This document shows positions 8,187-15,604 of a DNA stretch of 16,624 nt, piece after piece (the stretch's first letter is position 1; the number at the start of each line of letters is the position of its first letter). The stretch covers positions 1 through 16,624 of the forward strand of contig CAMOVS010000004.1 in assembly GCA_946627575.1 (NCBI GenBank), given 5' to 3'. A program made the translations under genes and the position numbers. The DNA comes from an uncultured Lachnospiraceae bacterium (GTDB lineage Bacteria; Bacillota; Clostridia; Lachnospirales; Lachnospiraceae). Under the pieces are notes generated by a model. That model did no database searches, had not been told where the DNA came from, and worked only from the letters and a program-made list of their open reading frames with translations.

Positions 8187-9182
8187 ATGGCAAAACAGGA
8201 TAAATCATCAAGGAAAGGGAAATACCGCGGATATGATATCGAAGGACAGACAGGAAGCGACATCAACCGTCCATGGTTCTGGAAGGTTCTTCTGATCAGC
8301 CTGCTGCTGACCGCGGTCATTGTCACCGGTGTCTGCTTTACTTTCATGCACAGGAAGCATGAAGAAACCAGGTCCCTGGAGGAGATTAATGAGGCCAACA
8401 CCCTGAAAAACCTGATGAAAGACCATGATAATGTAAAGATAATCCGCTCCTATGCTCATCTGACCGAGGGAGAGGATTATACGGCTACCAGACAGATCAG
8501 CATCGGCGAGGGCGGAGATTATTATTGTTATTACAAGGTGGAAGGAACGGCTTCCGATTATAAGGAAGTGGTGGACCACGGGGAATTCTATCGAAATGAG
8601 GGAGATTTCTCTTATTATTACGGTTTGATCGGCGACGATTATGAAAAGAAATGCCTGGCTCCTATGGAGGAGGACGTCTTCCAGCTTAATACCGACGATA
8701 CCCTGGGAGACCAGAATTCCAGCGGGAATCTCAAGACCATCCGGCTCACCTACAATGTCCAGGGCGGCGATGAGTACAATACCAAGTACGGCTTTGAGGC
8801 CGGGACCGAGGTCGTGAAAAAGATTACCTACGAGTCGGATTCAAGACTGATTACCTCCGTATCGGAATCGGTGGATGATGAGGTCTTCTTCAGCTATCTG
8901 GTGGAATTTGACTCCGAGCTGAAGATCCCCCGTTTCTATCAGAAGATCAAGAAGCTGAAGACCATGAGAACCTGCACGGTTGTAAGCAGCTACCAGAGTG
9001 ATAAAGAGCAGACTTATGACTACACCTTCGGGATCGGAACCTACTTCACCGTATTTGAGCATGATGGCTATGGGATCTACCAGGACAAGGAGGGAAATGT
9101 AGAGTACAGCAAGTCCAACCTCCAGTTCCAGAACCCCATCACAGATCTTACCCTCTATGTGATTTCTGCCGGAGGGAAATAG
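8187..9182 (+). CDS. Uncharacterised single-pass membrane protein with large extracellular domain
   Basis: I do not recognise this 331-residue protein. The first 28 residues are basic and hydrophilic. One hydrophobic segment (about 30-54, FWKVLLISLLLTAVIVTG and onward) follows with no cleavage or lipobox motif, so it should be an N-in membrane anchor exposing residues 55-331 outside. The exposed part begins with a helical EEINEANTLKNLM segment and continues as alternating beta-type sequence rich in Tyr, Asp and Glu (for example YYCYYKV, FSYYYGLIGDDYEKK). This suggests a beta-sheet domain of the kind seen in lipoprotein-like surface proteins; that fold is inference. The start has AGGAAGGAG (8172-8180) 6 nt before ATG. 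The upstream gap (8055-8186) shows no convincing promoter, so it may be transcribed with polC and the carbonic anhydrase-like gene. Confidence 0.85.
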   Translation: MAKQDKSSRKGKYRGYDIEGQTGSDINRPWFWKVLLISLLLTAVIVTGVCFTFMHRKHEETRSLEEINEANTLKNLMKDHDNVKIIRSYAHLTEGEDYTATRQISIGEGGDYYCYYKVEGTASDYKEVVDHGEFYRNEGDFSYYYGLIGDDYEKKCLAPMEEDVFQLNTDDTLGDQNSSGNLKTIRLTYNVQGGDEYNTKYGFEAGTEVVKKITYESDSRLITSVSESVDDEVFFSYLVEFDSELKIPRFYQKIKKLKTMRTCTVVSSYQSDKEQTYDYTFGIGTYFTVFEHDGYGIYQDKEGNVEYSKSNLQFQNPITDLTLYVISAGGK

Positions 9183-10601: not shown

Positions 10602-11750
10602 ATGATGAATCATTTATTAAAAAACAAGTGCAGAACTATTTTGACCCTTTTCCTGACAGTGGTCCTGCTACTGTCGTCAGCAGCCTGCGGCAAATCCGCG
10701 GCCGGCCAGGATACCGGCTCCGGCTCGGGGACAGCGGAAGCAAAGACAGAGGTCGGACCGCCCCCTGCCCTGGCTGCTGAGGTAGAGCTGCCGGAGGAGG
10801 TCTCCACTATGGTCTATCCGGTTTGGGCCCTCCTGCTTACTGCCTCTAAGGACCGCCTGCCCTACTATGGTTATCCGGAAAATGCAAAAGATGATAATGC
10901 CGATGCATTCTATGAGCCCATGAGCATACTGACCACCCTCATCGAAGAGAAGACAGAATACGGAGAGGGACAGAAGACCGATGATGACCGCTATAAGGTA
11001 TCCGAGGAGGTCTTTTCCCGCTATGCCAACGCCCTTTTTGACAGCTATGGCATGCAGGAGATTGAAGCTCCGGAGCTGTCGGAAGAGGACGGATATGCGA
11101 TGTTGAATGATGAAGATCTCTACCCCTATAGCTTTACCAGGGCCGATCTGACCAATTATGAGGCGGTGGTGATCGGCTGTGTTAAAGATGAAGATAATTA
11201 CGGCTATGAACTGGACGCAGAGCTGCGGGACACGCAAAACCGGACGGTCCTTTATGAAGCAAGCTTCCATATGATTCCCTCATCCTTTGAAGGAGAGGAA
11301 GAAAAAGACCTATTCGGCTATTCTATTTGCGATATCGAGGATGAAGTGGATTATAAACTGGAGGAGGAACTGGCGGATCCGGAAGAGAATGATACCGATG
11401 CATCCGGGATCGAGACCCAACCGGAAGATAGGGACAGCGGCCTGAAGGAGATAGAGAACAGGTCAACAGAAAGCGATAAGGAAGAAGAATTACAGGGCAA
11501 TCCTGATGTGACAACATCGGATCCGGGCCGGGAGATCGACCAGGATGAGGCGGATGCCAAGGCAAGAGATTATTCCGGTCAGGAGAATCCTGTCTACCAG
11601 GGAAAGGAAAACCTGGAAGGTCAGGACTATTATAATTACACCTATAATGATGAGGAAGGCAGCAGCCGCAATGTCCTGGTGCCGACGGACGGAAGCGATC
11701 CCATCGGAGGCACCAAGAACGATGACGGCACGTGGTCTTTTGATCAGTGA
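10602..11750 (+). CDS. Uncharacterised acidic lipoprotein
   Basis: I do not recognise the family of this 382-residue protein. The N-terminus is a lipoprotein signal: basic residues (NHLLKNKCR), a hydrophobic core (TILTLFLTVVLLLSS), and a relaxed lipobox SAAC with the lipidated cysteine at position 29. A short Gly/Ser/Ala linker follows (30-60). Residues 61-255 look like a folded domain containing PYYGYPENAKDDNADAFY (87-104), an alpha-rich stretch, and a beta-type stretch YEAVVIGCVKDEDNYGYELD (186-205). Residues 256-330 are very acidic and low in hydrophobics, so probably disordered. The last 40 residues (YYNYTYNDEEGSSRNVLVP to GTWSF) look like a small separate beta module. It should sit on the outer face of the membrane. 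It follows the AlaX gene by 80 bp with no terminator between them. No clear terminator follows it either. Confidence 0.85.
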   Translation: MMNHLLKNKCRTILTLFLTVVLLLSSAACGKSAAGQDTGSGSGTAEAKTEVGPPPALAAEVELPEEVSTMVYPVWALLLTASKDRLPYYGYPENAKDDNADAFYEPMSILTTLIEEKTEYGEGQKTDDDRYKVSEEVFSRYANALFDSYGMQEIEAPELSEEDGYAMLNDEDLYPYSFTRADLTNYEAVVIGCVKDEDNYGYELDAELRDTQNRTVLYEASFHMIPSSFEGEEEKDLFGYSICDIEDEVDYKLEEELADPEENDTDASGIETQPEDRDSGLKEIENRSTESDKEEELQGNPDVTTSDPGREIDQDEADAKARDYSGQENPVYQGKENLEGQDYYNYTYNDEEGSSRNVLVPTDGSDPIGGTKNDDGTWSFDQ

Positions 11751-11810
11751 TCGGCAGCAGGCTGCTATTCACGGCTCCGCCAGCCATCAGGTATCGGAAT
11801 AGCAACAACA

Positions 11811-11850
11811 ATTACAAATAGATTTCAGAATATTACAAATAGGTTACAAT
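11811..11850 (+). repeat. Helically phased TTACAA direct repeats
   Basis: ATTACAAATAG occurs exactly twice (11811-11821 and 11832-11842), 21 bp apart. A third TTACAA follows at 11844-11849, 11 bp after the second. Spacings of 21 and 11 bp place the three copies on the same face of the helix, as expected for a cooperative protein-binding site. The binding protein is not known from the sequence. Confidence 0.6.
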
Positions 11851-11924
11851 TGGAAAAAGATTGGCATTTGTGCATTTTGCTGATTTTCCTATCAGTATTT
11901 CTTTATAAAAGAGAGATGGAATGA

Positions 11925-11964
11925 TTTTCCGGTGGATAAGTCCTGAGAATTATCCACCGGAAAA
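11925..11964. repeat. Perfect 15-bp inverted repeat built from two DnaA-box-like sites
   Basis: TTTTCCGGTGGATAA (11925-11939) is the exact reverse complement of TTATCCACCGGAAAA (11950-11964), with a 10-bp spacer. Each arm contains the 9-mer TTATCCACC, on opposite strands. It is unlikely to be a terminator: T-runs are on the 5' arm and A-runs on the 3' arm, and no U-tract follows on either strand. A DNA dyad for protein binding fits better. Confidence 0.85.
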
Positions 11965-12020
11965 AAAGCGAAAATATGTGAACAATCCAGTTATCCACCA
12001 AGTTATCCACATTATCCACA
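11931..12020. promoter_or_regulatory. Cluster of five DnaA-box-like sites
   Basis: Against the consensus TTATCCACA, the sites are 11931-11939 (minus strand, TTATCCACC), 11950-11958 (TTATCCACC), 11991-11999 (TTATCCACC), 12003-12011 (TTATCCACA) and 12012-12020 (TTATCCACA). The last two are perfect matches and abut with no gap; the third lies 12 bp before them. Five such 9-mers in 90 bp is far beyond chance. DnaA boxes of this density mark origins or DnaA-titrating/regulatory clusters. The nearest promoter (-35 at 12164) is about 145 bp away, so direct repression of hpf is not obvious. dnaA, dnaN and rpmH are not in the window, so function is inference. Confidence 0.85.
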
Positions 12021-12074
12021 AAAAAATCGGGCCGCCAGCCTCCCCTGAAAATTCGTCAATCCGAAACATTTGTT

Positions 12075-12090
12075 TTGTAGGAAATTGTAG
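12075..12090 (+). repeat. 10-bp-period TTGTAG repeat in AT-rich tract
   Basis: TTGTAG occurs at 12075-12080 and again at 12085-12090, one helical turn apart, in an AT-rich tract that follows the DnaA boxes and a GC-rich tract. It could be part of an unwinding element or a minor protein site, or be coincidental. Confidence 0.3.
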
Positions 12091-12163
12091 AATCTTAAAA
12101 AAATGAGGCCAAAGTGAAAGTGAGAGAGCAATGTGAATTGTCTGTCAATTTCCCCATTTCCTG

Positions 12164-12192
12164 TTGCCATCGGGAAGGATACTTGCTATAAT
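12164..12192 (+). promoter_or_regulatory. Promoter of hpf with extended -10
   Basis: TTGCCA (12164-12169) and a perfect TATAAT (12187-12192) are 17 bp apart, with TG at 12184-12185 giving the TGn extension. It lies 34 bp upstream of the hpf ATG. A short inverted repeat AATTG/CAATT (12136-12140, 12146-12150) sits just upstream of the -35. Confidence 0.88.
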
Positions 12193-12210
12193 TATAGTAC
12201 ATCAAGAGAG

Positions 12211-12216
12211 AAGGAG
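12211..12216 (+). promoter_or_regulatory. Ribosome binding site deciding the hpf start
   Basis: AAGGAG lies 9 nt before ATG 12226. The longer in-frame start at 12133 is upstream of the promoter -10 and has no such site, so 12226 is chosen. Confidence 0.8.
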
Positions 12217-12225
12217 TGTGATCGT

Positions 12226-12753
12226 ATGAAATATATTATCTACGGTAAGAATCTTGAGGTAACGGAGAGTCTTAAGCAGGCTGTGTATGACAAGTTCGGC
12301 AAGCTGGACAAGTTCTTTACGCCGGAAACCGAGGTTCAGGTCACATTAAGTATCCAGAGAGAAGAAGAGACCGTCGAGGCAACCATTCCCATGAAGAGAA
12401 ATATTCTCCGGGCGGAGCAGACCACTAAGGACATGTATGCTTCTATTGACCAGGTTGTCGATGTATTGGAGCGTATGGTCCGCAAATATAAAACCAAGAT
12501 TTCCAGTCATGGAAAGGGAGTCGGAACCTTCAATGAGGATTTCCTGGAAGAAGATGTGGACAGCAACGAGACCGTGAAGATCACCCGGAGCAAGAGGTTC
12601 GCGATCAAACCCATGGATGCAGAGGAAGCCTGCGTACAGATGGAGCTTCTGGGACATAGCTTCTTTGTCTTCCGCAATGCCGAGACCTTCGAAGTGAACG
12701 TGGTTTACCGAAGAAAAGGCGGCACCTATGGCCTGATCGAGCCGGAATTCTAA
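12226..12753 (+). CDS. hpf: Ribosome hibernation promoting factor, long form
   Basis: This 175-residue protein binds the small ribosomal subunit and pairs 70S ribosomes into inactive 100S dimers when growth slows. The N-terminal domain (1-95) begins MKYIIYGKNLEVTESLK and has the beta-alpha-beta layout with a basic helix (VLERMVRKYKTKISSH) expected of the S30AE fold. A linker of about 25 residues follows. The C-terminal dimerisation domain (about 118-175) has RSKRFAIKPMDAEEACVQME and ends NVVYRRKGGTYGLIEPE, diagnostic of the long form of Firmicutes. An in-frame ATG at 12133 would add 31 residues unlike the family, so it is not used. The gene has its own promoter and terminator. Its position just before secA matches B. 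subtilis (yvyD-secA). Confidence 0.95.
   Translation: MKYIIYGKNLEVTESLKQAVYDKFGKLDKFFTPETEVQVTLSIQREEETVEATIPMKRNILRAEQTTKDMYASIDQVVDVLERMVRKYKTKISSHGKGVGTFNEDFLEEDVDSNETVKITRSKRFAIKPMDAEEACVQMELLGHSFFVFRNAETFEVNVVYRRKGGTYGLIEPEF

Positions 12754-12961: not shown

Positions 12962-15604
<2,643 letters not shown>

Follow-up and report, generated by a model that had tools for sequence, protein, structure and literature searches.

What function a dense cluster of DnaA boxes serves in a short intergenic gap ahead of hpf and secA is the question raised by this locus. It lies in the window, the whole 16,624-nt stretch of uncultured Lachnospiraceae DNA that was analysed, which belongs to a draft genome of 1.81 Mb in 354 contigs (70% complete). 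A sequence-only reading of the window had favoured a site for DnaA titration or timing, with a tie to hpf and secA or a moved replication origin as further options. Comparison with relatives indicates that the cluster is part of a widely conserved putative DnaA-box module.

The box array and its conserved spacing

The sequence-only reading had described five boxes packed into 90 bp, and direct reading of the letters finds five TTATCCACM boxes at 11931-12020, each where it had been placed. Four of them, all on the + strand, form the core: box A (TTATCCACC, 11950-11958) begins 53 bp before C, box B (TTATCCACC, 11991-11999) begins 12 bp before C, and boxes C (12003-12011) and D (12012-12020), both TTATCCACA, abut head to tail. 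The fifth, TTATCCACC on the - strand at 11931-11939, is outside the core conserved beyond the genus; some genus relatives (L030, L034, L035) likewise have a reverse box, 19 bp before A. A sixth, weak DnaA-like box (TTGTTCACA) is found at 11977-11985 on the - strand. The draft genome has 66 TTATCCACM, or roughly one every 27 kb, so a group of five within 90 bp greatly exceeds what chance would give. The word TTATNCACA, with at most one mismatch, has 19 matches in the window against 8.46 +/- 2.82 in shuffled sequence, and none of 200 shuffles reached 19.

The gap of 475 bp reported earlier runs from 11751 to 12225 at 38.7% GC, between the stop of the ORF at 10602-11750, directly upstream of the array, and the hpf ATG. 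Its flanks are AT-rich as had been said, with 37-40% GC, whereas most 2-kb bins of the window have 48-56%. The hpf gene (12226-12753, + strand) encodes a long-form ribosome hibernation factor with both S30AE domains, and secA follows on the same strand at 12962-15604. A likely sigma-70-type hpf promoter, TTGCCA-17 bp-TATAAT, was recognised by eye at 12164-12192 (+ strand), about 145 bp downstream of D. The ORFs at 8187-9182 and 10602-11750 have no Pfam match at E 0.001.

An inverted repeat with 18-nt arms (11925-11942 and 11947-11964, 94% complementary, 4 nt between) contains the reverse box and box A in its arms, a point absent from the sequence-only reading. DnaA-box hairpins load the helicase on some plasmids, and this strong repeat at 11925-11964, with two boxes in its arms, recalls them; only some members of the genus have it. 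A terminator or RNA reading was rejected: no T-run is seen behind the repeat by eye, the fold z-score was -2.37 (3 of 200 shuffles gave an equally good fold), and an Rfam search of 11700-12300 gave no match.

The spacing of the + strand boxes is conserved among relatives, which the sequence-only reading had missed. The step from B to C (12 bp) and that from C to D (9 bp) are fixed across the order, the class and the phylum. The distance from A to C falls into three classes, 42-46 bp (48 loci), 52-55 bp (61 loci) and 63-66 bp (7 loci), and no other value between 25 and 84 bp occurs at the 116 loci with an A box; these counts, like the conservation counts below, are inflated by shared ancestry. 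The 116 derive from a spacing set of 160 loci, which counts at least one genome twice (L034/L050) and includes the nagZ-side arrays L153-L157; 137 have the C-D pair and 23 do not, and 21 more have no A box. The three classes differ by one turn of DNA, and a period near 10.6 bp is the best fit, with a broad peak. Box B is often TTATACAC or TTATTCAC in relatives, and the array region of 117 loci holds 266 forward versus 25 reverse copies of TTATCCAC.

Comparison with related Lachnospiraceae, a check proposed in the sequence-only reading, finds the boxes conserved and the conservation reaching other classes of the phylum; the absence of conserved boxes, named there as counting against a role, is not what is seen. 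Among 71 named hpf loci (80 named hpf relatives less nine with under 600 bp upstream), 61 have two or more exact TTATCCAC in the 600 bp ahead of hpf and four have none; none of 3550 shuffles and none of 66 control stretches taken from behind hpf reaches two. The exact abutting box pair is found at 45 of the 71. A B-C-D pattern, TTATNCACNNNNTTATCCACNTTATCCACA with at most two mismatches, is present in 120 of 245 genomes of the order, 94 of 293 of the class and 97 of 199 of the phylum, three sets that overlap slightly, and the reversed B-C-D control gave zero among the matches listed. At loci fetched by the motif only (30 order, 30 class and 20 phylum places among the matches listed), hpf lies downstream in 29, 13 and 12 cases, respectively, two of the 12 being the window itself and G027; the single order locus without hpf ends at a contig edge. 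Phylum matches in families f113, f129 and f103 belong to other classes, and secA was also found in 8 of 10. The gene order at L289 (f129) and L291 (f103) is comFA-comFC-array-hpf-secA, with the com names assigned by eye, and f103 has a csp-like gene before hpf (by eye).

The motif is not universal, since 79 of the 121 class genomes with hpf show none at two mismatches and 42 list it. Direct reading of 29 class hpf loci found 12 without a comparable box cluster in the 620 bp upstream. Searches of open-licence literature, judged by title and abstract opening, brought up no report of this module, nor of DnaA boxes with hpf or of LexA with DnaA boxes in clostridia, and what they listed on DnaA boxes in Lachnospiraceae concerned a plasmid.

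The dyad beyond box D

Past box D the window carries a conserved dyad, CGAAACATTTGTTTTGT (12062-12078), that the sequence-only reading does not mention and that corresponds to the near-perfect palindrome CACAAAACANNTGTTTTGTG found in other families. The distance from box A to the dyad makes the module about 130 bp long. The dyad region forms a block, TGTCAAG..GAANATNYGTTTTGT..TGATAAAT, with its GTCAA word at 12055-12059 (+ strand) in the window. The block is conserved in 63 Lachnospiraceae-type loci, in an alignment anchored on the dyad pattern, where letters fixed by the pattern prove nothing and the flanking words are outside the anchor. The dyad half YGTTTTG is 42-45 bp past D in 80 of 86 loci and 34-35 bp past it in 3, a count that leaves out loci without an array and takes genus genomes twice (two copies each). 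A promoter inside the TGTCAAG...TGATAAAT block was considered and rejected, as the spacing misfits sigma-70 (by eye). TGTCGAA-like words, resembling Spo0A boxes, occur in some loci (by eye).

At hpf in seven other families (f63, f72, f90, f85, f81, f31 and f40), CACAAAACANNTGTTTTGTG or a word one letter off it lies 11-12 bp past D, as found with a pattern that allowed little variation. The palindrome was not seen in families f22, f52 and f59, which have further box-like words there instead (by eye). In a search of 12 genomes at two mismatches the palindrome was present at the array in all 12, and in ten of them there is no copy besides the array's, G435 and G357 having one second copy each; 11 of the 12 had been picked because the palindrome was already seen in them, and only its absence elsewhere is new. 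The dyad was found neither at the oriC of the draft nor at three other box clusters. The helical phasing of the boxes and the near-single-copy palindrome are both new relative to the sequence-only reading.

Neighbouring genes and alternative explanations

The array is often found ahead of hpf, at a distance of 0.1-0.7 kb that varies while the internal spacing stays fixed. Of the 42 class genomes, 20 carry the motif on the hpf strand, 159-518 bp ahead of the gene, and four (G272, G298, G303 and G365) have hpf 2.7-3.5 kb downstream of the motif. In the remaining 18, which include fragmented drafts, the motif stands at another place or on a different contig. In G272 and G365 the gene after the array is ABC substrate-binding-like (by eye). 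In G355 and G313 the array and palindrome come after a Zn-ribbon gene and before a substrate-binding-like gene, and SigH precedes the Zn-ribbon gene (by NCBIfam in G313, by eye in G355); hpf in G355 is 1.05 Mb from the array and has no TTATCCAC upstream. G058, from the window's own family, keeps the array and the dyad (about 30 bp past D), with hpf on another contig without a cluster. In two other families (G641 and G575) the array and palindrome, 11 and 14 bp past D, lie between lgt and tsaD, the tsaD match of G641 being partial, and these arrays (L277, L279) have no A box at the phased distances. Because array and dyad are kept away from hpf in several lineages, the module appears to outlive its gene neighbours. 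In family f32 (L255, L256 and L257), 12-9 arrays are found between sigH-like and csoR-like or leuA-like genes (by eye). The sigH gene is also near the f37 arrays, and is perhaps a further resting place of the module.

The explanation that competes best is transcriptional control, in which DnaA at the array and a protein on the dyad would regulate hpf, and perhaps secA, linking hibernation to the DnaA level or the replication state. A same-strand hpf adjoins the motif-fetched array in 29 of 30 order loci and 20 of 42 class genomes, and does so in other classes as well; adjacency this frequent and ancient would also be explained by local regulation. In A. hallii (L030/L048) the dyad is just upstream of a likely hpf promoter (by eye), and DnaA acts on sda transcription in B. 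subtilis, according to the sda passages of PMC4447404. Set against this are the arrays with a dyad but without an adjacent hpf (G355, G058 and the lgt-tsaD arrays), the four genomes with hpf 2.7-3.5 kb downstream, and an array-hpf distance that ranges from about 0.1 to 0.7 kb when the internal spacing is fixed. Arrays apart from hpf weaken the case for an hpf operator. The earlier proposal that the cluster ties initiation to hpf and secA loses ground too, since several lineages keep the module with no hpf next to it and 12 of the 29 class hpf loci lack a comparable cluster directly upstream. We consider transcriptional control unlikely as the explanation of the module: hpf may be affected where the array adjoins it, but its control is probably not the main function.

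More doubtful still is a passive sink, in which the array would simply take up DnaA, as one cluster among several, and would have neither a partner protein nor a special activity. The draft does hold further clusters, for example on contigs C1, C58 and C62, and six B. subtilis clusters act largely additively, as described in the part of PMC5295017 that deals with them. However, titration alone has no need of spacing classes one turn apart or of a near-unique palindrome at a fixed distance, and the dyad is missing from the oriC and three other clusters of the draft.

The cluster on C58 (L004, G000:C58:5184-5417) has five TTATCCACM between murC and dnaD-dnaC (helicase-loader-like), and two family members have arrays at the same place (L271 in G240 and L272 in G237). 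DnaA may regulate its own helicase-loading genes from the boxes at dnaD-dnaC. The cluster on C62 (L005, G000:C62:1570-1714) is between nusG and nrdD (anaerobic ribonucleotide reductase), and G004 has three boxes at 2,895 kb, two of them at the same 24-bp step as in L005. The cluster on C1 (L002, G000:C1:13089-13277) has three TTATCCACA, among which is a 12-9 array at one mismatch; it lies between D-Ala-D-Ala peptidase-like and glutathione-peroxidase-like genes, both below the NCBIfam cut-offs.

It is very improbable that the dyad is a LexA (SOS) box through which DNA damage would act on DnaA or hpf. Look-alikes of it, CGAAAACACTTGTTTTCTT among them, do occur upstream of lexA in Anaerobutyricum. 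Among nine full-palindrome genomes, however, AAAACA-N2-TGTTTT is found within 400 bp upstream of none of the 19 LexA-family loci, two of which (L223 and L229) end at contig ends and may have a misplaced upstream stretch; the main lexA carries the canonical GAAC-N4-GTTY in eight of the nine; and a near-single-copy palindrome is unlike a regulon operator. In Anaerobutyricum the lexA promoter dyads at L178, L179, L181, L183 and L184 have AAAC-N4-GTTT forms beside GAAC-N4-GTTC forms. In the portion of the C. difficile LexA paper covered here (PMC4234289), secA and sigma-54 have no occurrence.

A replication origin moved away from dnaA, an option left by the sequence-only reading, finds some support in the close packing of strong boxes and in neighbouring DNA with a high AT content for this window, but is hardly credible and was rejected, because the only dnaA match in the draft is flanked by boxes on both sides and the skew of a complete relative, G004, has no switch at the array. 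The draft has a single match to the dnaA C-terminal domain, on contig C7. Five TTATCCACA precede dnaA there, and three TTATCCACM lie between it and a dnaN-like ORF (dnaN by position and by eye). In G004, on which a sampled form of the skew check proposed earlier was run, dnaA lies at 1 kb and the array ahead of hpf at 2,438 kb. GC skew, taken from twenty 20-kb samples, was positive at 20-1400 kb and negative at 1600-3490 kb, so its switches fall close to dnaA and around 1.4-1.6 Mb, and none is at 2.44 Mb. The cluster has neither the dnaA adjacency nor, by the sampled skew of G004, the GC-skew switch of an oriC. Across chromosomes, the dnaA-array distance is 0.04-0.29 of the half-chromosome in 11 of 12 and 0.61 in G004, the G422 array of this set being classed as hpf-type by its likeness to G375.

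A candidate DnaA-control module and its known counterparts

The precise spacing and the persistence apart from hpf suggest a stand-alone switch controlling DnaA. The titration or timing role favoured by the sequence-only reading remains the best class of explanation and is extended by box conservation that reaches other classes. We give a probability of about 60% to the reading that the cluster is the putative DnaA-binding part of a stand-alone, non-coding DnaA-control module, similar to datA or to the B. subtilis clusters. DnaA would form a short head-to-tail filament on B-C-D, a bend in the linker would bring DnaA bound at A onto the same face, and a dimeric partner on the dyad would stabilise or time the complex. 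After duplication of the site, which usually falls in the origin-proximal third, the complex would lower the available (ATP-)DnaA, and lowered DnaA would restrain re-initiation. Both titration and a changed nucleotide state of DnaA can be considered; we prefer a datA-like negative role, since all core boxes share one direction.

A more specific proposal is tentative, and we hold it at somewhat below even odds. It takes the locus as a widely kept, near-single-copy Gram-positive module, in which the phased four-box array and a dedicated partner palindrome would inactivate or time DnaA. This would be the missing counterpart of datA and DARS without IHF or Fis, with the gcp-type cluster as a relocated relative. 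Bacteria of this phylum are not known to have IHF/Fis systems. With its roughly 130 bp kept across classes, its helical-phase constraint and its near-unique palindrome, the module is a defined experimental target.

The datA locus has essential same-direction boxes at optimised intervals, one IHF site and a position near oriC, as given in the datA passages of PMC5742627. Like datA so described, the module is non-coding, outside and usually near oriC, with few strong boxes in one direction, intervals that appear to matter and a putative second protein site; boxes A to D are on the same strand, and the position is oriC-proximal in 11 of 12 chromosomes. Unlike datA, it has its palindrome outside the array, and an E. 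coli-type IHF consensus between boxes occurs in only 1 of 117 arrays. DARS1 and DARS2, in the corresponding parts of the same source, pair a core of boxes at set intervals with binding sites for further proteins, an arrangement that relatives share, and the module likewise combines a fixed-spacing core with a putative partner site kept among relatives. Box I of the three-box DARS core is reversed relative to II and III (PMC5742627), in contrast to the four core boxes here, which point one way; the extra reverse box before A is present only in some genus members. For C. difficile, DARS- or datA-like roles for oriC boxes are raised only as a possibility in the relevant part of the origin paper (PMC7561715).

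The DnaA-box clusters of B. subtilis are also outside oriC and come from the same phylum. Their joint removal advanced initiation, according to the section of PMC5295017 on the six clusters. Unlike the window, the 20 top-ranked DnaA regions of B. subtilis in Table 1 of PMC4447404 include none at hpf (yvyD) or secA, and the parts of that paper on these regions name no palindrome. Region 4 in the same paper is gcp/ydiF, and it is this region that the arrays near tsaD (gcp) in families f110, f119 and f142 resemble (f110 genes by eye): the f110 arrays come after an ABC-F-like gene and, in L276, also before tsaD (by eye).
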